DNA of 28,218 bases from a virus: positions 1 to 28,218 of the IMG/VR virus record IMGVR_UViG_3300034198_029528. One strand, given 5' to 3'. The notes beneath the pieces are model-generated. The model did no database searches. It was given only the letters and a program-made list of their open reading frames with translations, and was not told where the DNA came from. Numbering within the stretch: position 1 is the stretch's first letter; each line of letters opens with the position of its first letter. The position numbers and the translations under genes are program-made. Below, in pieces: positions 5,701 through 24,286 of the stretch.

Positions 5701-7337
5701 CGCCGCCATCAAAATTCTATTATTCTGAAAAATATAAATCATTCTTTGCTGCTACCAATACTGGCTTTTTCTATGGTCGAGGCGAAACTGCTGCTGATTT
5801 CAATGAATGGAGAGAAGTTGTTGGTGCAGAAAATACAAAAATAATAAGAGATATCATCGAAGACAATAACGGTGATATATATTGCAGTAGTGATCTAGGT
5901 GCTTATAAATTAAGAAAGTCTGTCGGTGAAAATATATTTTATCTAGAGCAGTTGCCAATATTCGGTCCAATAAGTACCGAAGGTTATGCGATGCTTTATG
6001 ATGCGAATCATGGTAGAATTATTGTTAGCAACTCGTTGGGTATTTTTGAATCGTATGATGGCGGAGCAAATTGGTTCTTCAGTGATGAATTTACCGAGCA
6101 AAGACCAATTCATGTCTTGATACAAGATAATGATTATACGTTTGCTTTGACCGATTTCATGGTATGGAGAAAATCGATTACATCTCAATTCTTTGAGCGT
6201 ATCGGAGTTCTTGAAGATGTTGAAATTTCAAGGAAAATGGTGATATGGAATGATAGAATTTACATATCCACTGATATTGGTCTTGTTGCTTCCTCGCCTG
6301 ATGAAAATATTTATACAAATGATACTGTAGTTTTTGAAATAGCATATCCTAATTTGAGAATCAAGAGCCATAGATTGCCTGCAACTTCGTTGAATATAAT
6401 TGATGATAAGTTGTTTATAGGTACCGAAAACAGTCTTTATATAAGCGATAGGCCTTCACATATTGCGATACATTATGAAAATACACAATATTTGATGCCA
6501 ACAATATATGTCAATGGCATAGAGCAAAAAATTGGTTATAGATTCACTACAAACGATACGGCCTTGGGTAAATATCTTTGTTTTGATGAAAAGCAGCCAT
6601 ATGGAACAATAGTTACCGTTGCAAATCAATACCAAATTTATACTGCTAAATATGGTGGTTGGGTAAACGACAACTTCATATCTTCCGTAACCTTGCATCT
6701 TGATGGCATATCTTTGAATCAAATAAGTTTGGCTGAAAGGCCAGCAGATACTATGCAGGCACTTGTTTTGCCAACATATAATGATAGAAATGCTCATGCC
6801 AGCGGAGCTTCTGCTGCCTCTACATCTTTTGAATCAGCTAGATCGGAATTGCTTGCTACAAATGTCGATTCTACTAATGCATTCTTGTCATTCAAGAATT
6901 TTGACAAGGATCATGTAGTGCTAACTTTCAACTATTTGGATAGATTCTTGTCACAATTATACGAAAGCGCAAGAGTTACAACTATTACAAACGCAGACGG
7001 CACAACTACTACTGTTGATTTTACGCCACCAGAATTCAGAGTATTGCTTATGAATACTGATACCGCATATGATAAAAACTACATAGGTTCTCATGGCGTT
7101 TATAACGAATGGATTAACACGAATTCGAGTTCAACTTCGCCAGGTAAATTTGGCAATGAACTTGATGCAACATTTAGATTGAAGCAAGAATTGTTGGGCG
7201 GTACTGCTGACTTAGGAATTCAGGGTGGCGGAGAAAATATTGCTGGTGGTTTGTTATTGCCAGATACTGCATCTGATTCGTCATCTACAACAAGTTCTAC
7301 TGGAACTAGCAAAACATCAACCAGCATAGGAGGATAA
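2727..7337 (+). CDS. Giant fibre-like protein: six FN3-like domains plus Asp-box beta-propeller
   Basis: The protein has 1536 residues and starts at an ATG overlapping the previous stop by one base. Residues ~1-115 form a distinct N-terminal region (GDYYSATIDKRRFETIDQG, then GPGVIQGWNL), a good candidate for the virion-attachment domain. Residues ~118-735 read as six successive fibronectin type III-like domains, each with an I/L-x-W strand and a Y-K-I/V-Y or Y-Y-x-I-K strand. Residues ~760-945 are an unassigned linker domain with an EHKH motif. Residues ~954-1244 are a sialidase-type (BNR/Asp-box) propeller with Asp boxes at S977-A-D-Y-G-N-T-W984 and S1109-Y-D-G-G-A-N-W1116. The C-terminus ends in a Ser/Thr-rich tail of about 20 residues. 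Known Asp-box propellers include sialidases, but I see no catalytic arginine triad, so a binding or structural role is safer. No membrane segment is visible. Confidence 0.85.
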   Translation: MAEKSPYFGLEYFVVGDYYSATIDKRRFETIDQGMAFISDLIGPGVIQGWNLSVDTNLSLTISEGWGMIGRQITKTYGDYTRSLTDNNLYYVWMRGRPGVIGQLSGFSKTASCVYSDTTPPAIPTNLHATQSSTDSITIEWNAVTAIDLAKYLIYRSTNNIDYSLIDESTENSYNDVGLDENTIYYYKIKSVDYSGNYSNFSSVLTSVTSVDSSQPANPSNVKITAGKNLLYLTWNTAPYGNIAKYIAYVTPINVDGTSQGSTLTFETTYDKVDLTVYNLENDQLYSVVLKSVSVNEIESDGVEKKSTPRYYVGPPDIIFVTVDDFENTTSQYRNGLNINWSTYDNPYETFDGYAEILIEEYSPTDVITTSEWIRVAAGVTTKSIEVFLYKKNNSNFYKSIEARFTYYVTVRNVDENGVTSVGKRIKHVARNYVLPETPGNLQITQNQDYSLYFTFDNTKSVFATNYVRILQTLNSVQTELLAFTNIGKSTYYLLAKDFVQNDATYTFEIYCVDEFDNQSDTASVSAQVSIAAQVTTPVPPRTSIFPGDKQNTLTWNIDDATKISTYKVYRALDKFDLTSTDFSLIETLDGDQLTYTDYEVDNNTAYAYFVVATNSLGRSSPNIINNPRTSQAFVVGKPKSVSILPIITDLTASILGSSIEISWQPTGGVFDGYEIYKSIDNKYSFQYLTNVSASTSYYLDQNALLKTSKIYYIIRKYRNEAEPYITESNVDVTNAVILAKITTSNGSATIDKTVARNIAGLEDPIRIETRKVLAEHKHTYNSDTDDRRINLNDQIIVDDWTSLDNQAFITATDISNTTTYEVYLDGKIASEYKIVYLLNKESGKLTFETKLAATGYESDTATYPFSTLPTISVKFGGIEEVQGTLPKNRLQSVSATQITSGKFMKKQLEDFNHDGRIKEKLVPLQLQTVNLDSGYRYSLQDQTEIFGNAIVFYEIIPINSENVDLLASTSDGIYTSADYGNTWTKKISLVTPPSKFYYSEKYKSFFAATNTGFFYGRGETAADFNEWREVVGAENTKIIRDIIEDNNGDIYCSSDLGAYKLRKSVGENIFYLEQLPIFGPISTEGYAMLYDANHGRIIVSNSLGIFESYDGGANWFFSDEFTEQRPIHVLIQDNDYTFALTDFMVWRKSITSQFFERIGVLEDVEISRKMVIWNDRIYISTDIGLVASSPDENIYTNDTVVFEIAYPNLRIKSHRLPATSLNIIDDKLFIGTENSLYISDRPSHIAIHYENTQYLMPTIYVNGIEQKIGYRFTTNDTALGKYLCFDEKQPYGTIVTVANQYQIYTAKYGGWVNDNFISSVTLHLDGISLNQISLAERPADTMQALVLPTYNDRNAHASGASAASTSFESARSELLATNVDSTNAFLSFKNFDKDHVVLTFNYLDRFLSQLYESARVTTITNADGTTTTVDFTPPEFRVLLMNTDTAYDKNYIGSHGVYNEWINTNSSSTSPGKFGNELDATFRLKQELLGGTADLGIQGGGENIAGGLLLPDTASDSSSTTSSTGTSKTSTSIGG
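3078..4930 (+). repeat. Array of six fibronectin type III-like domains
   Basis: Domain starts fall at about residues 118, 215, 315, 432, 535 and 645 of the second giant protein. Each opens with a proline-containing linker (PAIPTNL, PANPSNV, GPPDIIF, PETPGNL, TPVPPRT, ITDLTAS), followed by a strand with tryptophan or an equivalent aromatic (ITIEWNA, LYLTWNT, LNINWST, LYFTFDN, NTLTWNI, IEISWQP). The later copies carry the typical tyrosine-rich F/G strands. FN3 arrays are common spacers in phage tail proteins and may give weak adhesion to bacterial surface carbohydrate; that role is inferred here. Confidence 0.75.
7328..7333 (+). promoter_or_regulatory. Strong Shine-Dalgarno site AGGAGG
   Basis: AGGAGG lies five bases before the ATG at 7339, inside the last codons of the preceding gene. 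It fixes the start of the 1490-residue protein and is the best ribosome-binding site in the window, which argues for a host with a conventional anti-Shine-Dalgarno 16S rRNA. Confidence 0.9.
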
Positions 7338-7338
7338 T

Positions 7339-10300
7339 ATGTCGTTGTTTTCGCCTCGTGAAAGTGGAAATCCTGATGCACAGCGTTATATTTGGTTGAA
7401 TGTAAATAACTATACTGCCGATATGATACGCGATTACAGCACAGGCTCGCCTATATCGCAAAACACAGCCACATGGTCTGTAACATTTGAAAAGCAAACT
7501 ATAGAATGGCGTGGCATATCGTTCACAATCACGCTTACGAATAAAACTCAAACAGAGCAGCCAGCCCCATATCTAAAAATAGATAGCGGCATGTATCATC
7601 CTAATTGGAACGCTGCAGGTGGCGATTCGGTATGGCGACATGTTAGAAATTATACGAATCACGATTCCTACGGTTTGCGCATGGAATCAGTTTCATATCC
7701 GTCCGTCAAAAATCCTGCGACTGATTACTTTGGAAATAAAAACGCTATTTATGGAATCAATTGGTTCGCTCCATGTTTGACTGTAGACAATTATGCTGCA
7801 AATACATTTGTTGGAGAAGGCTTGCAGATGATGTCGGTATCAACCAACTATCCATATCCATTTAAAATCTATGGTGAGTTTGATGCATCTACTCTTAAGG
7901 CATATTTCAGGATAGATGCCAACGTTGATTTGCCAGACGTTGGTATCATAGATAAATTTCAGCCAGGCGAAGTTCGATCATGGAAAGTTTGGTTGCGTTT
8001 TGAAAATTACAACAACATGTGTTTGTTTGACAGTCCTTTAACTCGCCATGGAAGTCCTTCGTATAGAAAAGTTGCTGCTTTGCGATCTTATGAACCATAT
8101 TTCTTATGGTATTGGGACAAGCACGGCGATCCAAATCATGGCCCAAGAGTAAGTGGCAGAATTTACGGAGTGAAGCTCGCAGGTCCATCTGCTCCGAAAT
8201 CATATTTCAATGCCAAAGACAATCCACGACGATACTTCTTGTTTACAACACAAGACAAGATAAATCTCAATGGAGCTTTGCCGCTGCCAGGTCAGTCGTA
8301 TGTAAATCCACAAAATGTAACAGGATGGAAAGAATTACTAAATGGGATCATTGATGTTGCAACCTTGAAAACATATGGCTACAAAGCCGCCATGTTGTTC
8401 AATGTTTCTGGTTGGGGAAACAACGACGCAGGCGGCAATCCGTCGTATTTCACCAATTTGCCCATAAATCTGCGCAATACTTTATCTGAATTGAAAAAAT
8501 GGGAAACCGACAATTCATTCAGAATTATTTTCGCGGCAGATAATGCTATGAACAAGATAAATCTTGGTTCATATTCTGATGCTGCCATCAATTTTGATAA
8601 TAATAATCCACAACATGTCGATTCGCTTCTGAATAATTACAACAATGGTGGCTTGAAATCAGTGAGCGGTTTATCAATGCTCGATCTGCCATTGACCACG
8701 ATTAAGAAGTATGTTAATACATATCTAGAGAGTTGGCGTAGTTTATTCGGATCAATAAGTTTTGTGGGCGAAAATCGTCAAGAAAATAGTTTGTATGATT
8801 TTGCTGTTCCATCATATATTGATAGATCTGAATTTTTGACTGCGGATTATTCCAAAGGCGGAAGAGATTGGTTCTTGGATATGCTTATGCAAGGAGCAGA
8901 TCCTTGGGTATTCATGCCTCTAGATTCTTGGTATGCAGATTATGGAAACAGCGATCAAACACGAGCTGCATACGATGCATATGCTCAATATATAGAAAAT
9001 AAGCATCAAGTTATACCTGTTACCATAGGCAGAATAGTAAAGAGTGAATGCTTATATCCGAAAAAATTGGATTGGAAAGATGATTTCGTAATCTATTCTA
9101 GCATCACTCCTAGTGGCAACGATTCTGTATGTCGTGCGGGTGATGGTGTTCTGAATCGTAAGATTTGCTTACCAGATGATTTGCATAAGTCATATACATC
9201 TAATTCGCCCGCAATTACTAATATGTTAGGCTTGTATCAGTTTGATGCATATTATGATTGGTCTATGCCCGGCGATACTAAACAGTCATGGGTTCCATGT
9301 TCAAGTATTGGTGGCGAATTGAAGTCGATGAGTGGCGACTCTTTACTGTGGTTATATCAAGACGACAAGCTCCAGAAAGCCAAACAAACATTGTCAAATA
9401 ATTTGCAAGGCATATATAGGCCAGGTGGAGCATACATACCTGCAAGTTATGCTTCTGATATTTTTCATAATTTTGAATTAAGTATTACATTGGATAACGG
9501 AACCAATAGACAAGTTGCTGTTGGATTTGGTTTGGAAATGTATGATGTTAACGATACGAGATTGGTAAGATCATCGCCTGGCTCTGGTTTGCAATCAAGA
9601 ACACTTCGTAATTGGTGGATATGGGTGCAAGACCAAGTTAATCCTGGCTGGTCAACAAATAAAACTGTTGATCAGCAAAGCGCATATCTGCAGCAGGCTT
9701 GGGCAGATCGTTGGCTTTATTACATGCAACAGCTTAATGTTACAATAAGATCTGTGCGTCCTAATATTAGAAAAATAGGATTCTACGGAGCGGTGCCTGA
9801 GAATAATGGATGGAGACTCGACGGATTGAATTTCGGTAAATCAAATCCTGAGCAAACCAATACTGCTTCACAAACTGAGATGATGCATTGGGATGCTTGG
9901 ATAAAGGCATTTGACTTCTTGGCTCCATCACTCTACTTGTTTCAGCCTACTGCAAATTATGAGGTTCCTTTGCAAATCACCGATCAAGGACGCAAGCAAG
10001 GCGATCCAATACAAGAGCGATTATTTTATCTTCTATGTCTGCGTGATAATTTGGAAATTGGCAGAATAGCAAATAAGCAGGTCTATGTTTTTGCTTGGCC
10101 TAGATATTTGCGCGGAGAAACAGTAATAAACAATAATATTGGTGATTTTTTAACACGCTCTGTATATACTGCGGGCTGTCAAGGTGTTATTTGGTGGGCT
10201 ATCGTTGGCAATAGACAGGCTACATTGAGTGAAATGGCCTTGATACAGAATTCATTCTATGATGCTGCTAATTTCATTAATGCCAGAGTTGCCGCACATA

Positions 10301-11811
10301 AGTTGACGGTTGCTCCACCCGATCCTATAACGATAGAGAATTTCGATATTAATGACGTTATACTATCAATTAATCCAACCACACAAACGATACCTGGCTA
10401 TGGATCTAAAATACCAGCACAATATCAGAGTGCAACTGAAATCGCCAAATATGGAAAGTATCGAATTACTTCTATCGGCGGTACAACCAGAATTGACACC
10501 ATAGAAGGCTTCGGTCTTCCTAGATATACCTATACAAAGACTGGTGCTGTTGGAGATAAATTCCCAGTTGATTATGCAAAATATGAAGTAGTTGCGATTG
10601 CAAATTCAGTCACTGGCACAGTTACCTTGCCACAAAATCTTACGAAATATGATAATTTGGAAATCACTATTAGAGACCCATCGTTTACTAATGTCGGTTA
10701 TCCACATACGACTGTTGAGGATACATTTGAATGGGTCAACTCGGGTATGCCATCGCATCTAAGTCAGGTTCATCATGCAAACGTAGTGTGTGGCGGTATT
10801 GGCCAAGAAAGGCTTTATCCAAGTTATCAGGAGCTTACGGCACCTGTATATCAAGCTAAATTTATTGTGCCTAAATCTTCCGTATTCTATGACAAAGTAA
10901 ATTCTACCATCGATTACAGTTTGTATATAGACTCGGGTAATAAGAATCTTTCGCTGCCCTATCCTAACGCAATTTTATATTTGGAATCAAAAAATCAGTT
11001 ACTTATAGGTGGTTATGGTGGCGTTATAGTTATTGACACTACAACAAACGCAATTACAAAACTAGCCATAGATACTGATAAGATACTGCAGATTAAAGAC
11101 ATGAAGCAGTATGAAAATATAGTTTATATTCTAGATGATAGTGCAATATATAAATACGACGTAGATACAGGCGAAATTGTTGCAGATATTACGCTTGGTT
11201 TGCCAAAGAAATTATACAGTATTATTTCAATACATGGCAAAACGCTGGCTGTAGGCGGCTCAGATGGTATCTACGCTCGCCAAATTGATGGATCGTCTTA
11301 TGTCAAGGTACTTACAAGCAGCAGCCCAATAACTCAAATGATATCGCCAGACGCTGGCTTTGCAGTATCTGATAATTCTACTATTTATTCAACTACTGAT
11401 GGATATACGTGGTCTAATTTAGGCAAAATACAATCCAAAGTCATCAATAGAATAGTAAAATACAAAAACAAGATACTTGTGGCCACGAACACTGGCCTCT
11501 ATCAAGATAATGGATCTTTCTACAGCGGGAAAGTCCAATTGCAACTATTGAACATTCTTGGTGACTTGGATGCATCTGCTGCGATTTCCGTAAATGATAT
11601 TTATAGTACGAATAATGCTTGCTATATAGCATTAGGCGATGGAAGATACGTGCAATATACAAATGATTTTGCCGTAGTTACATCGAAACTTGATACGGTG
11701 CATCGAGTTGTAAAAACAGATGCAGAGCTATATTTATTCGGCGGAAATAAATATCAAATAACATCTGAAACCTTTGTTCGTAGGCTTGCAACTGGCGCAA
11801 TCATGCGTTGA
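7339..11811 (+). CDS. Fibre/tailspike-like protein with two TIM-barrel-like (glycoside hydrolase-like) segments and C-terminal propeller
   Basis: The protein has 1490 residues; the start is set by the AGGAGG site. Residues ~1-235 are a beta-sandwich of the type that precedes glycosidase barrels. Residues ~245-555 alternate strands and helices like a TIM barrel (YKAAMLFNVSGWG, FRIIFAAD, SISFVGEN with E478, DPWVFMPLDSW). Residues ~691-981 form a second barrel-like segment whose order of motifs resembles GH56 hyaluronidases: R-P-N (~807) then GFYG (~814), LAPSLYLF (~861), KQVYVFAWPRY (~913), and AGCQGVIWWAIVG (945 onward). The GH56 catalytic D-x-E after strand 4 is not obvious; the equivalent region reads NWWIWVQDQ, so the barrel may be inactive or diverged. 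Residues ~1208-1490 are a propeller with one Asp-box-like S-T-T-D-G-Y-T-W. I infer a receptor-glycan depolymerase or binding spike; enzymatic activity is unproven. Confidence 0.8.
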   Translation: MSLFSPRESGNPDAQRYIWLNVNNYTADMIRDYSTGSPISQNTATWSVTFEKQTIEWRGISFTITLTNKTQTEQPAPYLKIDSGMYHPNWNAAGGDSVWRHVRNYTNHDSYGLRMESVSYPSVKNPATDYFGNKNAIYGINWFAPCLTVDNYAANTFVGEGLQMMSVSTNYPYPFKIYGEFDASTLKAYFRIDANVDLPDVGIIDKFQPGEVRSWKVWLRFENYNNMCLFDSPLTRHGSPSYRKVAALRSYEPYFLWYWDKHGDPNHGPRVSGRIYGVKLAGPSAPKSYFNAKDNPRRYFLFTTQDKINLNGALPLPGQSYVNPQNVTGWKELLNGIIDVATLKTYGYKAAMLFNVSGWGNNDAGGNPSYFTNLPINLRNTLSELKKWETDNSFRIIFAADNAMNKINLGSYSDAAINFDNNNPQHVDSLLNNYNNGGLKSVSGLSMLDLPLTTIKKYVNTYLESWRSLFGSISFVGENRQENSLYDFAVPSYIDRSEFLTADYSKGGRDWFLDMLMQGADPWVFMPLDSWYADYGNSDQTRAAYDAYAQYIENKHQVIPVTIGRIVKSECLYPKKLDWKDDFVIYSSITPSGNDSVCRAGDGVLNRKICLPDDLHKSYTSNSPAITNMLGLYQFDAYYDWSMPGDTKQSWVPCSSIGGELKSMSGDSLLWLYQDDKLQKAKQTLSNNLQGIYRPGGAYIPASYASDIFHNFELSITLDNGTNRQVAVGFGLEMYDVNDTRLVRSSPGSGLQSRTLRNWWIWVQDQVNPGWSTNKTVDQQSAYLQQAWADRWLYYMQQLNVTIRSVRPNIRKIGFYGAVPENNGWRLDGLNFGKSNPEQTNTASQTEMMHWDAWIKAFDFLAPSLYLFQPTANYEVPLQITDQGRKQGDPIQERLFYLLCLRDNLEIGRIANKQVYVFAWPRYLRGETVINNNIGDFLTRSVYTAGCQGVIWWAIVGNRQATLSEMALIQNSFYDAANFINARVAAHKLTVAPPDPITIENFDINDVILSINPTTQTIPGYGSKIPAQYQSATEIAKYGKYRITSIGGTTRIDTIEGFGLPRYTYTKTGAVGDKFPVDYAKYEVVAIANSVTGTVTLPQNLTKYDNLEITIRDPSFTNVGYPHTTVEDTFEWVNSGMPSHLSQVHHANVVCGGIGQERLYPSYQELTAPVYQAKFIVPKSSVFYDKVNSTIDYSLYIDSGNKNLSLPYPNAILYLESKNQLLIGGYGGVIVIDTTTNAITKLAIDTDKILQIKDMKQYENIVYILDDSAIYKYDVDTGEIVADITLGLPKKLYSIISIHGKTLAVGGSDGIYARQIDGSSYVKVLTSSSPITQMISPDAGFAVSDNSTIYSTTDGYTWSNLGKIQSKVINRIVKYKNKILVATNTGLYQDNGSFYSGKVQLQLLNILGDLDASAAISVNDIYSTNNACYIALGDGRYVQYTNDFAVVTSKLDTVHRVVKTDAELYLFGGNKYQITSETFVRRLATGAIMR

Positions 11812-11913: not shown

Positions 11914-14900
11914 ATGACAATTACCAAGGCATCAGTTTTCATTCGCACAGTTGGTTTAATTGACTCATCAGCCTCATTTTATGTTGCTGAAGGCAGTCAT
12001 GCCGCTTTTAGTGCGGCTAATTTTTCCTCTTTGACACAAGATGATAATTACATTACTTTCACACCAAGCGTAACCGATTCGTATCATGCTGGTTGTATGC
12101 AAGTTGTAAAATCAAATGTTTCATCGCAATTTGGTTATCTTACCTATCCGATTACTGCTGCTCAGGCAGGTAAATACTATGTTTATATAAGGGTCAAAAA
12201 TTTTGGAACCAATAATCATCTGCCAATAAATTATTTCATCAATGATGTGTATCAAAATAGCACCAATAGTACGGTTGTGCTGAATCAATGGGGATGGGTA
12301 AGCACTGAAATAGTTATTAAAGATGATCAGAAATTCAATCTAACTATACAGCCAACTGTACCTGATTGCTACATTGATACGATTGTAATTACGCAAGATT
12401 CTTCTTTGCCGTCATCTCTTACATTTAAAAAGAACTTCTGCACTTTACATTGCAAATTATTCAATTTAAACAGTTCCAATTCTATCACAAGCACATTAGA
12501 CTTCTATTCATATAAAACTACTCTTGGCGAAATCACAAATGATGGCTGGTACAATTTTGCCCTCGATCCGTTGCCTGGTTATACAAGTATTGATTTCTCT
12601 GGAAATTATGCCTTGGGATTGTTTATATCAGGCGCAAGTGATTCTTTGTATTTGGCATGGGATTATGCGGATGAATCTACTGGTGATGCTGCAAATACAT
12701 GTATTTTGTCATATAATGACACAACGCAGTCTTGGACTACTGATTGCACTAACAAGTACGCTGTAAAATATTATACGCATCATGATCCAATAGACGAAAC
12801 TACAGGCCAAATAGTAATACCACCATCAAATACAATTAACAAAAGAATAGAGTTGTTTGATGATGCCAATTTAGATCCAACCTTTCTGCAAGCAAAAATA
12901 GTTGCGGTTGATTCCAACTCAAATAAGGTTGCGTTGAATCTTTCGGATCGACTTGTTTCTATCGTCGTTGATCAAAGCGGTTCGCAGACATGGAATGATA
13001 ATCCTGGTCTACGTCACGTTACAACTAGAAGAATGATTGATAGATTGGAAGCAACATATCCTGGCGTTATTAAATATAATCTTGCCACATATGGTGCTAC
13101 GCCTATTCAGTTGGACTTTTTTGCGGTAGTCGAGTCTGATCAAGTAAATACGAGCAGTTCATCTGCCGTTGCTCAGTCATACTTCTCGGATCAAGAGAGC
13201 GGATATGCTGGCGTTAGAATAGTGCGCAAACTTGGCAGTTATCCAGTTAGCCCACTCGATGGCGAGGTTGTTGCTGAAGGCTTATTTCAACGAGCCTTGG
13301 ATGAAGATCTTACAAGTGGTGAGACCTATTATTATGCTGCTTATACATACAATTCCGATGGCGTATTTAGTGATGGTAAGTTTTTGTATGCAACTCCTCA
13401 TGATCGAATTTTGCCACAAGGCGCAGGCAATTTTACGTATCGAGTTGTTGTTGGCACGGGTATTAAACGCGATGCGAACACAGTTGCATTGTGGCACACT
13501 AACGAATCTGACGGAAATGTTTTATATGATTTTTCTGATTCTAATTTGATTCTCAATGCCAACAAGACTGATCTAATTTGGTTAAATAAAGCAGATGTTC
13601 CTAATGGCACGAGCGGATTGCGGCTTGATGGTACTACTCGGTTCTCTGCTTCGGATTCCAATAATTTATTGGTAAATAATCAGTTTACAATAATGTCTTG
13701 GATTTATCCATTCAATTTTGCATCTAAAAGAGTAATTTTGAGTAGAGAAAATACTAGTACAAGCAAACTTACATTCAAGTTTGGTATAGACGTGGATGGT
13801 TTGCTGTTTATCACATTAGATGATGTTATTGTTGCTAAGTCGGATACGGCTATTGTTGCAAATAGTTGGCAGCATGTCACTGCAACGGTAGATGTTGATC
13901 TTTTAGTTGCAACATTTTATATTGATGGTGAGTTTGCTGGTACGGCAGTTTTAAATACAGGCGCAAAACATAGTACTTCTGCTATGCCCGTATATGTTGG
14001 CGGCGCAACCAATTCTTTCCTTGGCAAAATAACTGAAATTAGTGTTCATAACACAATTAGATCTACTAATTACATTGTTGAGGCCTCCACATTGCCTGCA
14101 TCAGCGGCAAGCAAGGTTATTGACAATGGTGATAGACTTGTAATTTTGAAATATCTAGTAAGCTCTGATTTCAATTACTCGGGTGGCAACATAAAAATTC
14201 TACGCAAAGAGGCGGTTGGATCTGCAAACTTTGACTACAATGAACCACAAACAACAGGCGCAACATCTGAAGTTTTCAACGAACCAATTCTGACATTCAA
14301 TGGATTTGGAGAACACATCAACAATGAGTTTGATGGATCTACTGTATTCTCTGAAACAGCGACTAGTGGCGAAAAAGTACTTGCTTTGCCATTTGATTAT
14401 GTGCATGCGAGGGATTATTATTTCAGAATTTTCACCAAGAACACTTTAGGGAATACTAGTTCTGATTCTGACTCACCAGAGCTCAAGGTCACTATTCCTC
14501 AATTCGAAAGCGTTAACGCTAGAGATGCTGCAATAACAATTCCATTTTTGCCTAAGATACAAAATGTTCAATTCATTACTGGCAATGCGAAAGCATATAT
14601 TACTTGGGATGCACCTACAGATGAGAACGTTGCTCAAATACAAGTTTTCTGGTCTGATAAGGGTACACCGATCATTGATGGCGAGTCAAAGACTAGCAGT
14701 TCTGCAATACTTGTGTATTCTGACAATTCTACAAGCACTGGATTCGTTGATAGAAACATAGAAAATTTAGTTATCAGTTATTATTCGATTGTAGCAGTAG
14801 ATAAGTATGGAAACTTCTCACAATCTGTAAATATAAGTGTTGCCCCAAGCGAAAATGCTGATGAATCATTGATTCCGTTACTTGAAGTCAAGAACTTCCA

Positions 14901-17900
14901 TTATGAAATAGTCAATCCAAATGCCATAAGTTTGGCATGGGATGCGCCAGTAAAATTCCAAAAAGACATTGATGCGTATTTCGATGAAAGAATAGTTCTT
15001 TACGCACAATTGACTGATGATTATGGATCACCAATTTCAGATTTGAGCAACATAAAATTCACTGTAACAGCGAAAATAAATAGCGATGATATTGCAGAAG
15101 ATGTTTTTGCGCCAGCAAATCAAGCGGCAACAAACTTTACCGTTAATGATACATACGTAATATCTAGTACAGTATTGGGTGATGGTGTAATTAAGGGAAT
15201 ATTTAGGATGACTACTAATCCTGATATATTGTCTGCAATTAATTATTTGTATGCTAATATAACAGTTTCATATTTCATACCTGATAAAAACGATAGTACT
15301 AGAAATGTATTTGAAATGTATTCTTTGCCAATAAGATTGAGGATGCTCAATCCGTTCGGCATGGAAATTGTGAACGTGGGTGATAATACAAATAATTATG
15401 GTGATCCACTTGTAAGCAATACCGCCATAAAACGATCAAAGAGAAGAAGCAGCAAGACTCTTGCTAACGCAAATACTCAAGAAGGATTGCAGGACAATAC
15501 TGCACAAAAATCTGGCGACAAGGTAAGAATATTTTGCAAGAAAACAGTTCCTTTGGATGATCAGTCTTTCATTGCCAGCGGTGGCACAAATTACGAGCCT
15601 AGCAGATATAAGGATTTTGATGGATGCTACATAAGAAGAAGTAGGCCTTATACGGCTCGTGTTATAGTTACATATAAAAATCAGCCATTGCCGCAAGGCT
15701 CGTCTTGCAACGTTGCGGTTTATGAAGCTTCAGATCCACAGTGCGATCCTAGCGAGGCCGAATCAACGAATCCTTGTGCTACATCAACTGATCAGACAAC
15801 AACTACTCCGTTTGTTCCTACGTATTCAAATATCAGAAGTAAAACAGTTCAACCACCTGCTACATCTATAGTATTTAAGTTGGCTCTGCAAACTCTTTCT
15901 GACGGAAGTTCACGATACGTTTCGTATGCGGATGTACCCTTGAAGGCACCTGCATCGCCTCAGGCAGTAATGCTTTTTGCCAAGGCAAATTTTGCCAATT
16001 CTAATTCTAGAAGAAAAGCTTATGTAGTATTTGCAAATATTTTGCGCATAGAAACGACTATCGAGCCACCTCAGCCTAATTGCGTAGATGTTGCAGAACA
16101 ATTCGCTAATGTCTATTTGGTTAATCCTGATAGTCCTGATCCAATCAAGCCGAATATAACAAAAATTAAGGAATCCATACCCGTACGATGGGAAATTCGC
16201 AAGGGCTTGGGAGCCAAGGATAGGCCTTTCTATACCACAGATAATGTACCAATCGGGCCTGGCATTTTCTCATACGCACGCAATGGCAACGCTCGCAAAG
16301 TGTTTTTTGGACCCGCATGTGGTGTCCAATTTACTCTTTATACATGTAATGCAAATGTTCTGATGTTGCCTGAACTTTATGCCATCAAAGCATCAGTAGT
16401 TTATGATGGATTGCAGGATTTCGAGGAAAGGCCAGCAATCATTTATCCGCAAAATGTTGCAGGCTCGGGCTTCGGTTCTAGATTCCTCATATCCTTACCT
16501 CAGTATTATAATCCCTTATACGCTGATGGATACACATATATCAAGGGAACTATATATCATGATCCATCCGTGACTGGCGGGCAATTTGGCGGATGTTTCT
16601 TGCAGTGCGCATCCGATGCTAATCGACCTGTTTTTTCTCTCACTTCAGGTCAGTTGGTTGATCTTGAATCGGGCGATGCATTCGAAATATTCTATGGAGA
16701 TGATATAACTCTTGAATATGATGAGGACATCGATGAGACTTTAATCAAGAATGGAACAGAGGCTATAGGTTTTGCGCAAATACCTTTATCAACCAGCAAG
16801 AACTATACTGATTTTTATCTGCGCATAAATAAATTCGTTGGAACAGAATCTGAAAGTGGTACGCCATCACAGAATGACAATGGTAGAAATCTTAACCCAT
16901 GCCTTTGCGTTGAATTACCTGCAGGTCTATTGAATAAAAAGGGATTGCCTGTGGTGAGAGGCACCACTACGATCAACTATAACGGTGATGTTCTCTATCT
17001 GCAGGGTGGTGGTGACTTCAAGAATGGCATACCTCCAACTGTAATTGAACTCAGAGAGCCTTTAAGCCTTATAATAAGAGATATTAGACGCAATGGAGTT
17101 TCTGTTGAAACGTTCTTGTGCGATGGCGTATCGACTCATGAAATTATTGTTGAGTTGGCATTCAAAGACAAGCCTGTACCTAACGGTACAGCAGTTTTTG
17201 TGGCAGTAGGTGGCAAAAATCCTGAACGCATAGTTTTGCAAAATGAGGTTGTTTATACAGAGCAAAAGGTAGATTTAACGCTCGACAATATAGGGAATAT
17301 ACGCAGTTATGCTTCGGTTTTTGTTTTGCCAATAAATAATGATACTGCATTTGAATCGCAAATCAGAGTCGAAAGCAACTACGATAAGAGAGGAGATGCA
17401 GATCGCAGCATCTCGTCATGCTTGACAATAAAATTTGATCCTTCAATCAAACCTGAAGCTAACGTTGATGGATTGCAGAATAAAATTAATAACATATATG
17501 ATAGCAAATTAGAAGTATATGATACCGTAAATGATTCTTGGTCCACCAAAACAGGCATGAATAATCCTAGAGGCTGTTTGTCTTTGACATGGGGTTTTGA
17601 TGCGTATGGTGAGCAGTTGTTTGCAATCGGCGGCATGAATGGTCAATCGATACTTGCTACCAATGAAGCATATGATGTAGCAACAGACTCATGGCAAGAA
17701 AAAACATCCATGAGTATACCTCGATTCTATCATATGTCAGCGTATGATGGAAATTACGTTTATGTATTTGGAGGAATTACAGTTACGCAAAATGTGTTGG
17801 AAATAACTAGGGTTGTAGAAAGATATGATATTGCCAACGATTCTTGGGAAGTTGTTGCAAGCATGCCAGTTTTCGATCAGAATCCTTATGGTGTAGCGTT

Positions 17901-20900
17901 GGGTTCTTGTGTTGTTGTCAATTCCAAGGCTTACATAATCGGAGGTATCACCAAGATAGGTAATAAAGGCAGCATAGATGCACTGAATGATAGAATATTG
18001 ATATTTGATTTTGATACATTGGAGTGGAGCTATTCTAGCCCATTTACCAACTTGGAATATGAAGTTTATTGTCGTATCAGTCCATTTGTTTATGTTTCAT
18101 CTGATGCCAGCACAATACATGTATTAGGCGGCTCTGTATCTCAGCCAATCAATCAAGACACAGGCGAACAATCACTTGACTTCCCAACGGAAACATTCGC
18201 AATAAATGTTTCGAACTTGGAGTTGTCATTGGATGATTCAATTTATACGCAGATTCCACGCTTGCGTTATAGAGGTGGTTGCGCCAGCGTGGTTGATAAG
18301 CATTATTTCTTGGGTGGCACCACTAAGAAATCTCTTGTATCAAATATTTTTGAAGTTATTACGGAAAATGTCGGAATAAATTATTATGCCAAACTTGATG
18401 ACATGCTCACGCCAAAAACTTCATTTGGCTACGCTAGTGATAATTGGCAATACATTTATGTATGTGGTGGTTTAAATAGTGGCAGACCTAAGGGTTTCAT
18501 ACAAATAAAGGCAGATGTTAATCCTATAAATGTACGCTTGGATGGCAAGCAGTCATCAACTCTGAAAATAGAACTTATAAATGATATAGGCGAAAGGCCA
18601 GATGCAACTATTAGAGTTCTTGTGCAAGGAATCGTAACATTCCCAGACGCAGCAGCAGGTGCTTCAACAGGTGGCGATACCGCACAGCAACAATCGGGTA
18701 ACTCTGCTTTGCGTGACGCATTAATCTATCCTGTTGTATTTAGCAGTCATGATCTAAATATTGAAAATGGTTTAGGTTCAACTATACTTTTGCCTAGATC
18801 TGATGATATACTTAAGAAGGTTGGAGAAATCAAGCAGGCATTGGGTATTACAGATACGTTGCCTGGCGAAGGGGGCAGCGACGGCTCTGATACTTTGGTA
18901 ATTAAGGAAGGTCAGATACGTTATCCATATACCATACAAATTAGAATTACGGTATTGGATAGTTTCTATTATGGTCAGACAGTGGTAGACGTTAAGGATA
19001 ATGAAGACGAAGCAGTAAATACAACTGCTACGACACCAACGCAAGTTGTAGATACGCCGATATCTCAGCCAACATCTCCTACCCCCACAAATCAAATTAT
19101 ATTTACGGGTTGTAGGGAAGTCCTAGCAAATAATTATGTTACGCAAAGCGGAAACGGCACCGTCCCTACCATTGGCAAGAATCAAGAAAACAACAAAACT
19201 ATTGATCAGTCTATACAGTCACAGGACAATCCAGTATTCGATTTGAATCCGCCTCAGTCACCACAGTTCTCAAGTCCTGAGGTTTCCTATTACAGCGATA
19301 TAGAATGGATACCGCAATCCAAGATATTAGTGCAGTTTGGTACATATGATGAAGTATCAACCAAACTGAATATTTTGAAAAATGAAATACCATTTGGGGC
19401 TTCTCCATTGTATGACTGCTTACAGAAGATATCTGAAATATCTGTTGGCGAGGAACTAGATCCATATGTCAAGGTAATATATCTTAATACCGACAATGAG
19501 CAGAGCATGTCATTGATAACTCTCGACGAAGCGATTGAATCAATACAAGCAATAGATGGATATGCAAAAACACCTGTAGTTATTAATAACTTTAGTGTTG
19601 TGTCGCCAATTACATTGTCAGCTCTTGTGTCTCGTACCGATACGGATACTCTTGAGAGATTGGCTTCAGAAACTGGTGGTCAAAGTCAGACAATTCTTGA
19701 TGAAGATACTATTTCTGTAGTTCTCAACAATTCTATAGGTAGATTGCAGGGATCTATTGGGTATGGATTATACGAATGCGTAGTTGACGTACAAGAAGAC
19801 AATATCATCAATACGATAAGTGCTGATTTTGAATTATTTGCAAATACTGATGCTAATTGGTCAATATCTACGAGCTCTGATGGGTATTCTTACAATGATT
19901 ATAGCGACATGTATGGTCCAAACGAGACGATAACTTTTGATAATTTGCATGCAAGATTCATTAAATTCAAAGTAACTTTACTCTCAGGATTGAGCGCATC
20001 GATTGATGATGCATATGAACTTATTCCATCGCCTGGTGTTCCTGCTCTAACTGGAATTACAATCAAATACAGCGATCCTACAGTAAGTTACATTTATCTC
20101 AATCAGGATACTTTAGATTATAGTGCGCAGCAGATAGCCATAGCAGTATCCGCAAATCAGCCAAAACTAAGCACAATTGAGGTTGGCGCAACTTCAAGCA
20201 ATTCATTTAATTGGGATGAATATCAAAGTGGAGCGCAGCCTACTGTTGATCGATTCGGTAAGGTTTTCATTCCTATACGTTACAATCAATCGCATGACAT
20301 CACTCTTAATGAGCCTTTAGATTATATAGATGGCTATGTTTGGAAGGCTCGTTATGGTAGATGGGATACTTCTTCATCTGTTTACGTATATGATGCAACT
20401 GGTACGATGTTGGAATCTGATTTGTTTGATGCATATCCTCAAGATGGCTTGATTGTCTTTAAGCAAAGATATGTAAATCCATTAACAATCGGCATTGAAA
20501 ATGCTGGTAAATTGCGTGTTGGACTGAAGATAACAAATAAAGATGCATATAACACTGTAAAAATTGATGGCTTGGGTTATATGTACAATACGAATGTGTT
20601 CTTGCCAGCACCATTATCTCAAAGAGCGCCAGTAGTAACCGATTTTGCAATAGTGCCATCAGAAATATTTGTTTATGAGACAATATCGTTGACTTACAAA
20701 TATTTTGACTTAAATAATGATGCAGAAATTACTGAAGATGCAGATATAAGGTGGTATATAAATGGTGTTGAAATCGAGTACTTGCGTGGATTGAGAACGT
20801 GGAATGATATTACCAACGTCAATGATCCGATTTGGACTTATGCATTCTCGTTTACGTTGTCAGATGTGCCTTCTACATCAACGGTAGAGCAATACGCGAG

Positions 20901-21687
20901 AGAAAAACAAGAAAGCATAATCAAAGTTGATGATCTTATATATGCTACGATTAGGGTTACAGATGGCAATTTTTATAGCGATACTTATCGTTCGCAAGCT
21001 GTCAAGGTAATTGCCACACCTCCGTTTATTAACGCAGTAGTCATCAAGGGAATGAACAATAATGGTCAGTTGCAAGATAGCGTGACTTCGACAACTAGGG
21101 CTGTTGCTGATTTCGGATATTTTGCTGACGAGAATTCTGCTGACAAGGTTAAGTCACAAATTGTCTGGTACGTAAATAACGTCGAATTCAAGCGAGGCAA
21201 CTTGAATGAAACAGTGAATGGAATATCTAATAATCAAATCATACAAAATGAAACCGTTGGAAACGTTGTTGGCATAACTTATGGCAATGTTTTGCAAGTT
21301 GTAATCACTCCAGTTGCAAACGATATAATAGGATCACCTGTTTCTAGCGAGAGCGTCACAGTGCAAAATGATCCGCCAAAGGTCAGTAATGTTGTTTTGT
21401 CACCAAATCCTAGGGCTTCGGCTGCATCTTCTCTGCAGGTAACGTATACATACACAGATAGGGAGTCCATACAAACAGGCAGTCAACAGTCAAATCAAAG
21501 CTCAACCAAGTGGTATCGAGCTGTCAAGGGCAGTTCGGTATTCGAAGAAGTTGTGGCATTGCAGAATGCCACTTTGATTACTTCAGTGAATCTTTCTTCT
21601 GGCCAGAAATGGAAAGCCGAAGTAATACCATTTGACGGCTTCGACACAGGTACGCCTGTTCAAAGCAATGTTGTGGAAATAATCTAA
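11914..21687 (+). CDS. Giant 3257-residue modular adhesin-like virion protein
   Basis: This is by far the largest gene here. The order of modules, by residue, is as follows. ~1-170 is a CBM6/35-like jelly roll (GKYYVYIRVKNFG, then a central W and CYIDTIVI). ~345-410 is the first half of a VWA fold with the MIDAS-type motif D-Q-S-G-S. ~415-500 is FN3-like. ~518-730 is a LamG/concanavalin-like domain (FTIMSWIYPF, SWQHVTATVD, FYIDGEFAG). ~875-1060 is FN3-like. Invasin-like Ig segments lie near 1244, 1742 and 2215. ~1862-2200 is a kelch propeller (LEVYDTVNDSW, NEAYDVATDSWQ, VERYDIANDSWE). ~2463-2610 is the second half of a VWA-like fold. ~2605-2730 is a discoidin-like beta-sandwich. ~2906-3257 holds PKD/Ig-like repeats with W-Y-x-N-N/G strands. 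There is no signal peptide or membrane segment, which fits a cytoplasmically assembled virion protein. Host adhesion or a tail-fibre role is inferred from these modules and from position. Confidence 0.85.
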   Translation: MTITKASVFIRTVGLIDSSASFYVAEGSHAAFSAANFSSLTQDDNYITFTPSVTDSYHAGCMQVVKSNVSSQFGYLTYPITAAQAGKYYVYIRVKNFGTNNHLPINYFINDVYQNSTNSTVVLNQWGWVSTEIVIKDDQKFNLTIQPTVPDCYIDTIVITQDSSLPSSLTFKKNFCTLHCKLFNLNSSNSITSTLDFYSYKTTLGEITNDGWYNFALDPLPGYTSIDFSGNYALGLFISGASDSLYLAWDYADESTGDAANTCILSYNDTTQSWTTDCTNKYAVKYYTHHDPIDETTGQIVIPPSNTINKRIELFDDANLDPTFLQAKIVAVDSNSNKVALNLSDRLVSIVVDQSGSQTWNDNPGLRHVTTRRMIDRLEATYPGVIKYNLATYGATPIQLDFFAVVESDQVNTSSSSAVAQSYFSDQESGYAGVRIVRKLGSYPVSPLDGEVVAEGLFQRALDEDLTSGETYYYAAYTYNSDGVFSDGKFLYATPHDRILPQGAGNFTYRVVVGTGIKRDANTVALWHTNESDGNVLYDFSDSNLILNANKTDLIWLNKADVPNGTSGLRLDGTTRFSASDSNNLLVNNQFTIMSWIYPFNFASKRVILSRENTSTSKLTFKFGIDVDGLLFITLDDVIVAKSDTAIVANSWQHVTATVDVDLLVATFYIDGEFAGTAVLNTGAKHSTSAMPVYVGGATNSFLGKITEISVHNTIRSTNYIVEASTLPASAASKVIDNGDRLVILKYLVSSDFNYSGGNIKILRKEAVGSANFDYNEPQTTGATSEVFNEPILTFNGFGEHINNEFDGSTVFSETATSGEKVLALPFDYVHARDYYFRIFTKNTLGNTSSDSDSPELKVTIPQFESVNARDAAITIPFLPKIQNVQFITGNAKAYITWDAPTDENVAQIQVFWSDKGTPIIDGESKTSSSAILVYSDNSTSTGFVDRNIENLVISYYSIVAVDKYGNFSQSVNISVAPSENADESLIPLLEVKNFHYEIVNPNAISLAWDAPVKFQKDIDAYFDERIVLYAQLTDDYGSPISDLSNIKFTVTAKINSDDIAEDVFAPANQAATNFTVNDTYVISSTVLGDGVIKGIFRMTTNPDILSAINYLYANITVSYFIPDKNDSTRNVFEMYSLPIRLRMLNPFGMEIVNVGDNTNNYGDPLVSNTAIKRSKRRSSKTLANANTQEGLQDNTAQKSGDKVRIFCKKTVPLDDQSFIASGGTNYEPSRYKDFDGCYIRRSRPYTARVIVTYKNQPLPQGSSCNVAVYEASDPQCDPSEAESTNPCATSTDQTTTTPFVPTYSNIRSKTVQPPATSIVFKLALQTLSDGSSRYVSYADVPLKAPASPQAVMLFAKANFANSNSRRKAYVVFANILRIETTIEPPQPNCVDVAEQFANVYLVNPDSPDPIKPNITKIKESIPVRWEIRKGLGAKDRPFYTTDNVPIGPGIFSYARNGNARKVFFGPACGVQFTLYTCNANVLMLPELYAIKASVVYDGLQDFEERPAIIYPQNVAGSGFGSRFLISLPQYYNPLYADGYTYIKGTIYHDPSVTGGQFGGCFLQCASDANRPVFSLTSGQLVDLESGDAFEIFYGDDITLEYDEDIDETLIKNGTEAIGFAQIPLSTSKNYTDFYLRINKFVGTESESGTPSQNDNGRNLNPCLCVELPAGLLNKKGLPVVRGTTTINYNGDVLYLQGGGDFKNGIPPTVIELREPLSLIIRDIRRNGVSVETFLCDGVSTHEIIVELAFKDKPVPNGTAVFVAVGGKNPERIVLQNEVVYTEQKVDLTLDNIGNIRSYASVFVLPINNDTAFESQIRVESNYDKRGDADRSISSCLTIKFDPSIKPEANVDGLQNKINNIYDSKLEVYDTVNDSWSTKTGMNNPRGCLSLTWGFDAYGEQLFAIGGMNGQSILATNEAYDVATDSWQEKTSMSIPRFYHMSAYDGNYVYVFGGITVTQNVLEITRVVERYDIANDSWEVVASMPVFDQNPYGVALGSCVVVNSKAYIIGGITKIGNKGSIDALNDRILIFDFDTLEWSYSSPFTNLEYEVYCRISPFVYVSSDASTIHVLGGSVSQPINQDTGEQSLDFPTETFAINVSNLELSLDDSIYTQIPRLRYRGGCASVVDKHYFLGGTTKKSLVSNIFEVITENVGINYYAKLDDMLTPKTSFGYASDNWQYIYVCGGLNSGRPKGFIQIKADVNPINVRLDGKQSSTLKIELINDIGERPDATIRVLVQGIVTFPDAAAGASTGGDTAQQQSGNSALRDALIYPVVFSSHDLNIENGLGSTILLPRSDDILKKVGEIKQALGITDTLPGEGGSDGSDTLVIKEGQIRYPYTIQIRITVLDSFYYGQTVVDVKDNEDEAVNTTATTPTQVVDTPISQPTSPTPTNQIIFTGCREVLANNYVTQSGNGTVPTIGKNQENNKTIDQSIQSQDNPVFDLNPPQSPQFSSPEVSYYSDIEWIPQSKILVQFGTYDEVSTKLNILKNEIPFGASPLYDCLQKISEISVGEELDPYVKVIYLNTDNEQSMSLITLDEAIESIQAIDGYAKTPVVINNFSVVSPITLSALVSRTDTDTLERLASETGGQSQTILDEDTISVVLNNSIGRLQGSIGYGLYECVVDVQEDNIINTISADFELFANTDANWSISTSSDGYSYNDYSDMYGPNETITFDNLHARFIKFKVTLLSGLSASIDDAYELIPSPGVPALTGITIKYSDPTVSYIYLNQDTLDYSAQQIAIAVSANQPKLSTIEVGATSSNSFNWDEYQSGAQPTVDRFGKVFIPIRYNQSHDITLNEPLDYIDGYVWKARYGRWDTSSSVYVYDATGTMLESDLFDAYPQDGLIVFKQRYVNPLTIGIENAGKLRVGLKITNKDAYNTVKIDGLGYMYNTNVFLPAPLSQRAPVVTDFAIVPSEIFVYETISLTYKYFDLNNDAEITEDADIRWYINGVEIEYLRGLRTWNDITNVNDPIWTYAFSFTLSDVPSTSTVEQYAREKQESIIKVDDLIYATIRVTDGNFYSDTYRSQAVKVIATPPFINAVVIKGMNNNGQLQDSVTSTTRAVADFGYFADENSADKVKSQIVWYVNNVEFKRGNLNETVNGISNNQIIQNETVGNVVGITYGNVLQVVITPVANDIIGSPVSSESVTVQNDPPKVSNVVLSPNPRASAASSLQVTYTYTDRESIQTGSQQSNQSSTKWYRAVKGSSVFEEVVALQNATLITSVNLSSGQKWKAEVIPFDGFDTGTPVQSNVVEII
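17497..18500 (+). repeat. Kelch-type beta-propeller blades in the giant protein
   Basis: At least five blades are visible. Each combines a glycine pair strand (LFAIGGMNG, VYVFGGITV, AYIIGGITK, IHVLGGSVS, HYFLGGTTK, IYVCGGLNS) with a Y-D-x-x-x-(D/N)-S-W element, clearest in the first three. This is the textbook kelch pattern. The propeller sits between invasin-like Ig segments, so it appears inserted as a side lobe in a fibre. Confidence 0.85.
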
Positions 21688-21709
21688 GAATCAACTCCGA
21701 AAATAGTTT

Positions 21710-22417
21710 ATGAGTACCATTGACACGACCATTGTTGTTTTATCATATAATGGCAAAAGTGTTACTGAAAAATTTATAGAGTTATTGTATGCAAATACAT
21801 CTACATTCAATCTTATAATGATTGATAATGGCTCTACAGATGGAACGAAGGAATATCTATCCGAATCTCTCGGAAAATTCGACAACCATACTCTGGTTCT
21901 TAATGATCAGAATCTTGGGGTCATAGGGGGTCGTAACATGGGTTTCGCTTTGTATCAAAACGAACCTACTGACTTATTGTGCTTTTTGGATAACGATCAA
22001 TTTGTTCGCAAGGGATGGCTTGAGCAATATCGTGAGTTTATGGACGCAGGCAACTTTGATGTCATTGGCGCAGACGCATGGCTGATGGATGCCGCATTCA
22101 TGCCAAGGAAGAATTGCAAGAAAGCAGGCGAGCCATATACTTACGTCGGTTGTGGCGGGATGATGGTCAAACGCAAAGTTGTTGAAGACATAGGCATGTT
22201 TGATGATCAATTTAATCCTGCATATTTTGAAGATCCTGATTTCAACTTCAGAGCAAGAAAAAATGGATATAAAATAGGTTGGAATTATTTGGCAAAAATA
22301 GATCATTTGCCGCATCAGACATTGGGCAAAAACAATAATAGAATGAATATTTTCGCGCAAAGTTATAACAAATTCAAGGCCAAATGGAAAGGCGTGCAAA
22401 TGCTGCCTTTGCGATAA
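21710..22417 (+). CDS. Family 2 glycosyltransferase (GT-A fold)
   Basis: The product is a soluble 235-residue enzyme predicted to transfer a sugar from a nucleotide-sugar donor. The N-terminal strand TIVVLSYNG and DNGSTDGT (39-46) are the family's nucleotide-binding motifs. D94-N-D96 is the metal-binding DxD. GCGGMMVKR (147-155) and the acidic pair E174-D175 in AYFEDPDFNF mark the acceptor/catalytic region. The length equals a bare GT2 catalytic domain, with no membrane helices. It starts 22 bases after the giant adhesin gene with no clear Shine-Dalgarno site. Donor and acceptor are unknown; fibre or surface-glycan modification is inferred from position. A rhamnosyl-transferase-like specificity is possible but not demonstrable. 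Confidence 0.9.
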   Translation: MSTIDTTIVVLSYNGKSVTEKFIELLYANTSTFNLIMIDNGSTDGTKEYLSESLGKFDNHTLVLNDQNLGVIGGRNMGFALYQNEPTDLLCFLDNDQFVRKGWLEQYREFMDAGNFDVIGADAWLMDAAFMPRKNCKKAGEPYTYVGCGGMMVKRKVVEDIGMFDDQFNPAYFEDPDFNFRARKNGYKIGWNYLAKIDHLPHQTLGKNNNRMNIFAQSYNKFKAKWKGVQMLPLR

Positions 22418-22431
22418 GTCGATAATCAACT

Positions 22432-23577
22432 ATGAAACTTGTGATATGTACAAATTTTGCTCAACCATTTCACATGGGAGGCGCAGAAAAAGTTGTGCAA
22501 CAGATAGCCGAGGCTATGGTGCATGATTTCAATTATCAATGCACAATCATTACGCAGCATGGAATATCTCGTGTCATGCATAACGGCGTACAAATCCTTC
22601 CTACTGGCAGTTTGCCAGAAAATGTTTTTGTTGATGCTCTGCTGAAAGAAAAGCCGGATCACATATTAATTTATGGTGATTGGTTCTTCAGGTTTCCTAC
22701 AATCTTGCAGCATATTGATAAATTGAAATGCAAAATAACTCTTATACCTGTTGGATTTAATAGATTAAGATCACAGCATAATGCAAATAAAATATTGAAA
22801 AATATATTTCATGAGAAACACGAGAAATTCTCGATTATTGTGCATTCAGACTATTATATAGATGCAAAGTTTTGTCAAACAAACAATTATCCATATAAGA
22901 TCATAGCGAACGGAATTAATCTTCGTGAATTTGAAAACACCAAGAATGCTTTCCGTGACAAATATAAAATAAATTCTGAAAAGATTTTGCTATGTGTTTC
23001 CAACTTCTTTCCTGGCAAGGGTCAAGAATTCTTGCTGCCTATTGTCAAAAATCTTACCAATAATCGTTCGGACTTCACCTTGGTATTCGTCTCAACAACT
23101 TTGTCTTTCATGCTAGGAAATAAGAGAAGAGAAGAAATTAATAGGACAGCCACGGCGCAAAACTTGCCTATTCTATTTTTGAATGATATTCCAAGGGAAG
23201 ATGTTATACAATCGTACTTTGCGTGTGATGCTTTTGTTTTTCCATCACAACAAGAAGTTTCGCCTCTTGTGCTGCTTGAAAGTATGGCTGCATCGAAGCC
23301 TTGGATCAGCATGAATGTTGGCAATGCAGAAGACTTGCATGGTGGCTTTTGTTTCAAGTCAGCGATAAATAACGATAATATGTTGGTTTTTGATAATGAA
23401 ATCAAGAACAAATTCACTGATACAATAAACATGCTGCTTGATAATCCCTCTTTGTGTAAAACTATGGGCGAAGTTGGAAATAGGCAGATAATAGAAAAAT
23501 ACAATTGGGATAAAATCAAGTATAAATACAAAGAAGAATTTGATGCCAATACTATCAGTCGTAATGACCGCATATAA
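22432..23577 (+). CDS. Family 4 glycosyltransferase (GT-B fold)
   Basis: The 381-residue protein has both Rossmann halves of a GT-B enzyme. The N-terminal glycine-rich loop FHMGGAEKVV (13-22) is typical. NGINLREF (160-167) opens the second half, and FFPGKGQEF (192-200) carries the phosphate-contacting lysine. The donor-binding E-x7-E motif is E275-VSPLVLL-E283, preceded by VFPSQQ. Retaining transfer is the rule for GT4. The length is normal for the family. It begins 14 bases after the GT2 gene, without a visible Shine-Dalgarno site, and its 3' end overlaps the next gene by 35 bases. This strongly suggests one transcript and a shared pathway. Donor and acceptor cannot be read from the sequence. 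Confidence 0.9.
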   Translation: MKLVICTNFAQPFHMGGAEKVVQQIAEAMVHDFNYQCTIITQHGISRVMHNGVQILPTGSLPENVFVDALLKEKPDHILIYGDWFFRFPTILQHIDKLKCKITLIPVGFNRLRSQHNANKILKNIFHEKHEKFSIIVHSDYYIDAKFCQTNNYPYKIIANGINLREFENTKNAFRDKYKINSEKILLCVSNFFPGKGQEFLLPIVKNLTNNRSDFTLVFVSTTLSFMLGNKRREEINRTATAQNLPILFLNDIPREDVIQSYFACDAFVFPSQQEVSPLVLLESMAASKPWISMNVGNAEDLHGGFCFKSAINNDNMLVFDNEIKNKFTDTINMLLDNPSLCKTMGEVGNRQIIEKYNWDKIKYKYKEEFDANTISRNDRI

Positions 23578-24286
23578 TGCTGAAAAATATATAGCAGAAT
23601 CAATTGAATCTGTTATATCACAAAGTCATGCTGACTTTGAATTCATCATAGTGAATGATGGCAGCACCGATGGAACGGCTCAGATAATACAGAAATACAG
23701 CGATGATCGTATAAAATTTATCAATAACAGTCGAAATCGTGGATCTGTTCCATGTTTAAGAGATGCCATAAATATGGCAAGTGGAACTTATGTAGCCACT
23801 CAAGATGCTGACGACATAAGTATGCAAAATAGGTTTCAGTTGCAATTAGATTATTTTTCGAGAAATACGGCCACATTTTGTGTTGGTGGTAGATCTTTGA
23901 AAATAGATCCGAATGGGCACTTGATTGGTGAATGGAATTTCCCACCTGAAAATCATGATGATATTGTGAAAATGTTGGTGCGCGAAAAGAAATGTCCAAT
24001 CATAAATCCCACGAGCATGTTCAAGAGAAGTGAATACTTGGAGATAGGTGGCTATTCGCTTGATGCGGGTGTTGTTGCTTCATATGATCTTGAACTATGG
24101 ACTAAGGCAATACTGGCAAACAAGATTTTCGGTAATCTTAGAGACTATTTGGTTAAATATAGAATTCATTCGCAGAGCATGACACAAAGGCTGAAGTGGC
24201 CTCAGATAGCTGCTTATAACAAGATAATGGTAAATTTTATTAAAAGGGTAAAACATGTCAACTATGCAGGCAAAAAAGTGGACTGA
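23543..24286 (+). CDS. Family 2 glycosyltransferase, second copy
   Basis: The protein has 247 residues from ATG 23543; the TTG one codon earlier is less likely, because GT2 proteins commonly begin just before the SVVMTAYN strand seen here. NDGSTDGT (38-45) binds nucleotide, D88-A-D90-D91 is the metal site, and YDLELW (181-186) supplies the later acidic residues. NPTSMFKRS (155-163) is a common acceptor-side motif in this family. It is not a close duplicate of the first GT2: motif spacing and C-termini differ, so the two probably form different linkages. It overlaps the upstream GT4 gene by 35 bases and the downstream phosphoesterase gene by 32. There is no membrane anchor. Confidence 0.9.
   Translation: MPILSVVMTAYNAEKYIAESIESVISQSHADFEFIIVNDGSTDGTAQIIQKYSDDRIKFINNSRNRGSVPCLRDAINMASGTYVATQDADDISMQNRFQLQLDYFSRNTATFCVGGRSLKIDPNGHLIGEWNFPPENHDDIVKMLVREKKCPIINPTSMFKRSEYLEIGGYSLDAGVVASYDLELWTKAILANKIFGNLRDYLVKYRIHSQSMTQRLKWPQIAAYNKIMVNFIKRVKHVNYAGKKVD
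24244..24248 (+). promoter_or_regulatory. Shine-Dalgarno AAGGG for the phosphoesterase gene
   Basis: AAGGG within AAAAGGG lies six bases before ATG 24255, inside the end of the second GT2 gene. It supports the chosen start and independent initiation despite the overlap. Confidence 0.7.

Follow-up and report, generated by a model that had tools for sequence, protein, structure and literature searches.

Hyaluronidases of family GH56 are mammalian and venom enzymes according to a review of microbial hyaluronidases, which places the phage enzymes in PL16 (PMC11669647), and no paper on a phage GH56 was found in the literature searched, a result that is not proof of absence. The locus studied here raises the question of whether a phage tail protein carries a barrel of the GH56 type, a fold described as (β/α)7 in a 2025 review (PMC12254123), and whether such a barrel could still cut a polysaccharide. 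The original prediction, made from the sequence of the window (the whole 28.2-kb stretch of viral DNA analyzed) and without database searches, had recognized the landmark order of GH56 in one giant protein, here called P0001.

Gene context and domain limits

The gene, its domains and its neighbors are the following:

7339..11811, + strand: gene for the 1490-residue tail/fiber protein P0001, a single open frame with an ATG start, the third giant ORF of the window
9193..10314, + strand: GH56-like alpha/beta barrel domain, residues ~619-992 (~375 residues), proposed from the fold search with a homologue model, the weak agreement of the window's own model and family profile statistics
10495..11808, + strand: C-terminal domain, residues ~1053-1490, common to the GH56-bearing sibling L006 (40% identity) and, by its sequence, to L026
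2727..7337, + strand: left neighbor, a J-like tail protein with fn3, conserved across the group
11914..21687, + strand: right neighbor, a 3257-residue LamG/kelch giant; LamG homologues lie to the right also in L008 and L010

All the landmark motifs named in the original prediction are present in the protein encoded at 7339-11811: FGLEMYD (residues 730-736), NWWIWVQDQ (758-766), SVRPN (with R-P-N from residue 807), GFYG (814-817), PSLYL (863-867), the K-x-V-Y-V-F-A-W-P-R-Y-type landmark, which reads NKQVYVFAWPRY, and AGCQGVIWW (containing W952-W953). Most of them are kept in homologues only 35-50% identical and the family profile reaches Z ~5 against GH56, so that their occurrence goes beyond chance. 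The span proposed for the barrel, 9411-10281 (residues 691-981), lies in the right region but is too short and begins off frame: base 9411 falls inside a codon starting at 9409, translation from it runs into stops, and the first two strands of the domain lie upstream, with MLGLYQFDAYYDW from residue 629 and SLLWLYQ from residue 668. The domain was therefore set at residues ~619-992.

With a fn3-containing, J-like protein on its left and a LamG/kelch protein on its right, P0001 likely belongs to a tail-fiber or host-contact setting, an assignment supported by computation. Three consecutive glycosyltransferase-like genes adjoin the tail genes at 21710-24286 of the window.

Relatives and distribution

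Among IMG/VR records the whole protein recurs in a small group only, namely L002 and L003 (identical in sequence), L004, L005 and L025. Those of L002/L003 and L004 are full-length homologues at ~50% identity, and the L025 protein is longer (14464-22824, ~2757 residues), with about ten PKD-type repeats between the GH56-like and the C-terminal domains. The L005 homologue (6001-10470) is split over many frames, and so are the genes next to it, which more likely reflects assembly or sequencing errors of this contig than decay. The contigs of the relatives reach 494 kb, and at least some of these viruses are therefore very large phages. No relative of P0001 or of the GH56 domain of its siblings (see below) was found among 50,697 GenBank phages, nor was any relative found among bacterial and archaeal genome contigs. 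In L030 (34-12457) the homologue of the fn3 tail protein is followed directly by a LamG-type giant, the GH56-like slot being empty.

Fold and family assignment

Two AlphaFold2 models were examined, the first of the window domain, with six alignment rows, and the second of the L004 domain, which is 50% identical to it, from an alignment that took in the distant L025 and contained no GH56 rows. The former was poor (pLDDT 35) and the latter of low confidence (pLDDT 48, pTM 0.53), and at this low confidence both consist of alternating helices and strands; the fold evidence rests mainly on the better of the two, which is the homologue's and not that of the window domain. For the L004 model, Foldseek placed human HYAL1 first (E 1.1e-6, the next match following at 5.6e-4), and all of the first six VIA-align matches were GH56 enzymes (PH-20, wasp, three bee entries and HYAL1; Z 13.8-12.4, over 256-273 residues at rmsd 4.5-5.3), ahead of beta-amylase, GH42, GH164, PgaB and GH5 at Z <=11.3. 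The window's own model had GH56 at VIA ranks 1-4, at weak Z values of 4.5-4.1, and no significant Foldseek match; a viral structure library yielded no match at E <1e-3. A structural comparison had been suggested with the original prediction; the fold searches leaned toward GH56, with the low confidence of the models to be kept in mind, and the agreement of two such models on one rare family may be regarded as good but not conclusive evidence.

Sequence searches were less telling. The GH56-like stretch of P0001 had no match in Pfam, NCBIfam or PHROGs, searched as protein or domain, and, even with E values up to 10 allowed, Pfam GH56 (PF01630) matched neither the window domain nor the homologues from L002 and L004. 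Searches of PDB sequences with the protein or with profiles returned chance matches only (e.g., RTT109), which were set aside. Default hhalign gave insignificant results against the sibling GH56 domains and against a human plus sibling GH56 profile (probability 1.3%, E 0.042); its two best blocks were nevertheless collinear, and a realignment over 295 columns paired FHNFE with VIDWE, NPGW with HPDW, GFYG with GFYG, PSLYL with PSIYM and GVIWW with GVVLW. Probabilities of 84-86% arose only when the gap or shift settings were changed, which voids the calibration of hhalign, and were discarded.

A profile-profile alignment of our own compared four family members with HYAL1 (whose query sequence matches the PDB chain exactly), PH-20, L026 and L006, and resulted in Z 5.2 with column shuffles and 4.8 with block shuffles, none of 200 reaching the observed score, while other regions of the same and of neighboring protein families remained at Z <=1.3 and 1.4, respectively. 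Against the two human enzymes alone the signal was weak (Z 2.1, a value of 2.2 being reached by one unrelated stretch). Single sequences compared with 252 E. coli fragments scored at or near the top of the decoys before correction for composition, and mostly only within the top few percent, or lower, after it. The profile comparison with GH56 foreseen by the original prediction had in this way a divided outcome, insignificant by default hhalign, positive with the four-member profile and weak with human enzymes only.

The domain could alternatively be a barrel of another glycosidase group (e.g., PgaB-like, GH5 or GH42), or of a new one, whose likeness to GH56 is convergent, given that PgaB, GH5, GH42, GH164 and beta-amylase also stand at Z 10-11 and that default sequence methods provide no link to GH56. 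We consider this unlikely, because GH56 takes the first six VIA places, ~1-2.5 Z ahead of the next matches, as well as ranks 1-4 for the second model, because the profile signal is specific to this stretch, and because true GH56 occurs in the same slot of sibling phages. In light of these comparisons the resemblance of the fold to GH56 is supported by computation, and the claim that the landmarks follow the order of a GH56-type barrel stood, with Foldseek, VIA-align and the Pfam GH56 of the siblings on its side, except for the placement of the catalytic strand.

The putative active site

The residues considered are listed below. For the HYAL1 active-site residues Y202, Y247, W321 and R134, the letter at each position was checked against the sequence.

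9469..9477, + strand: N711-F712-E713, proposed catalytic N-x-E in place of the GH56 D-x-E (HYAL1 D129, E131); invariant in five members, paired with IDWE in hhalign blocks, at a predicted strand end
9610..9636, + strand: NWWIWVQDQ (758-766), a predicted helix (146-157 in both models), its Asp absent in L025
9784..9786, + strand: Y816, counterpart of HYAL1 Y202, with an alignment stable over nearly all settings; F in L004
9934..9936, + strand: Y866, counterpart of HYAL1 Y247, invariant in four aligned members
10195..10197, + strand: W953, counterpart of HYAL1 W321, invariant in four aligned members

The original prediction had expected the catalytic acids in NWWIWVQDQ, found no pair there, and offered the glutamate of FGLEMYD (E733) as a substitute. 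Neither placement is supported. Both models show NWWIWVQDQ as a helix, which in the alignment falls on the GH56 helix with HPDW at its end, and E733 is replaced by I in L004 and by V in L025. The likely pair lies ~48 residues upstream of NWWIWVQDQ, where N711-x-E713 closes a predicted strand (96-101 in the L004 model). None of the five family members departs from this N and E, the LNWEP form of L025 included, a conservation that is plainly observed. That N711 and E713 occupy the places of HYAL1 D129 and E131 is likely yet unproven, since our aligner, run under 60 settings, favored a three-residue shift of the motif in 37 of them, against 20 for the exact register; the latter is thus one that we infer.

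A GH56-like barrel that uses D765 (in VQDQ) or E733 as its acid is highly improbable. D765 is conserved in four members, frame-broken L005 among them, but both models place it in a helix, and it is missing from L025, which reads WALVLSTNEPGW there; I or V stands in place of E733 in L004 and L025; neither residue being conserved throughout, both were rejected as catalytic acids.

Compared with the GH56 hyaluronidases (PF01630; HYAL1 2pe4, PH-20 9jub, bee/wasp 1fcq, 2atm), which provide its best fold match and share its landmark order, the window domain has putative counterparts of E131, Y202 (as Y or F), Y247 and W321; it differs in having no Pfam match, in carrying N-x-E for D-x-E, in the lack of a counterpart of R134 in the alignment to HYAL1, and in being part of a phage tail protein instead of a secreted animal enzyme. 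Since a search for a Pfam match and for the D-x-E pair revealed neither, the domain would be better described, judging from its sequence, as a GH56-like variant than as a member of GH56 as defined.

Sibling phages with GH56 in the same slot

Two sibling records carry, in the equivalent gene, a GH56 domain that is significant in Pfam, at 4015-5010 in L006 (E 8.4e-9) and at 14590-15720 in L026 (E 1.2e-14), and a profile built from these two domains has bee venom hyaluronidase, HYAL1, PH-20 and wasp hyaluronidase as its four best PDB sequences. These genes occupy the same place as that of P0001, with the same neighbors, have the GH56 domain at their start and share the C-terminal domain of the window protein; they differ from it in their Pfam match, in their domain order and in their catalytic pair, of which D is kept (IDY) and E is replaced by S or K/R (IDYRKKWHP, IDYSRFHP). 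The records searched have either a Pfam-GH56 domain, or a domain of the window type, or neither, and never both. The siblings show that a GH56 domain can be found at this position of the gene order, which does not by itself prove the ancestry of the window domain, because the two kinds of domain are unalignable by BLASTP or default hhalign and differ in their place in the protein. In the likely register, the two lineages have lost opposite halves of the catalytic pair, the window type having N in place of D and the siblings lacking E.

These losses bear on the main rival to a catalytic barrel, a GH56-derived domain that does not cut and through which the fiber binds glycans and recognizes its receptor. 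The replaced assisting Asp and the missing R134 agree with such a role, and the loss of the acid in the sibling lineage suggests that a protein in this slot can do without catalysis, whereas the invariance of N and E in members down to 34-40% identity, and the use of N-x-E as a working pair in GH85, speak against it; we hold binding without cutting to be a substantial possibility. The original prediction had left room for a diverged or a non-catalytic barrel: divergence is part of the reading preferred here, and a non-catalytic state, while possible, has ceased to be the first choice, given the conserved acid that lies where one is expected (N711-x-E713).

In L008 (10245-11915) and L010 (10506-12236) an extra ORF of ~557-577 residues belonging to no Pfam family comes after the counterpart of the P0001 gene; the 557-residue ORF of L008 has no detectable homology to either barrel.

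Proposed mechanism and meaning

We tentatively prefer, at not far short of an even chance, a diverged GH56-type barrel in the tail fiber that uses N-x-E for catalysis on a GlcNAc- or GalNAc-containing polysaccharide of the host surface. The activity, substrate and infection role that we infer are these: E713 would donate a proton to the glycosidic oxygen, and the substrate's own 2-acetamido group would be oriented and polarized by N711 in a substrate-assisted, oxazoline-type reaction as in GH85, so that the most likely chemistry would be that of a retaining oxazoline-type endo-hydrolase on a cell-surface polymer of 2-acetamido sugars, which the fiber would cut before injection. Endo-A of GH85 employs N171 and E173 for substrate-assisted hydrolysis (PMC2646837), and in a QM/MM study of venom hyaluronidase the pathway was far easier when the assisting Asp was neutral (PMC13080975); a neutral Asn is therefore chemically reasonable. 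The likeness to GH85 is limited to the motif, whose active-site place in the window domain rests on a low-confidence model; GH85 is not among the listed matches of the fold searches and the window domain has no Pfam match. The PL16 hyaluronate lyases of phages (HylP) resemble the proposed enzyme in being phage enzymes that degrade a glycosaminoglycan, but are trimeric beta-helix lyases (PMC11669647), unlike the alternating alpha/beta barrel predicted here by low-confidence models and having no Pfam match.

It is conceivable, albeit with some doubt, that the window domain stands for a new family of glycoside hydrolases carried on phage tail fibers, derived from GH56 by an Asp to Asn change and cutting a GlcNAc/GalNAc polymer of the bacterial surface, beside a sister lineage that has kept D and lost the acid. 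Should the preferred GH56-type reading be true, GH56 would be extended to phages, with two lineages showing opposite losses of the catalytic pair; it would bear on the origin of the animal hyaluronidase fold, offer, in the change from D to N, a natural test of substrate-assisted catalysis, and give a lead to the receptor used by a phage group without relatives among the GenBank phage records searched. On the modeled fold, these phages may use the barrel to cut the host's sugar coat or to hold on to it.

P0001 has a second conserved region of alpha/beta appearance at 8230-9180 of the window (residues ~298-614). Its alignment with the part that follows GH56 in L006 and L026 is not significant (hhalign E 0.01 over 104 columns); the two are perhaps related, in which case the order of domains would have been shuffled between the two lineages.
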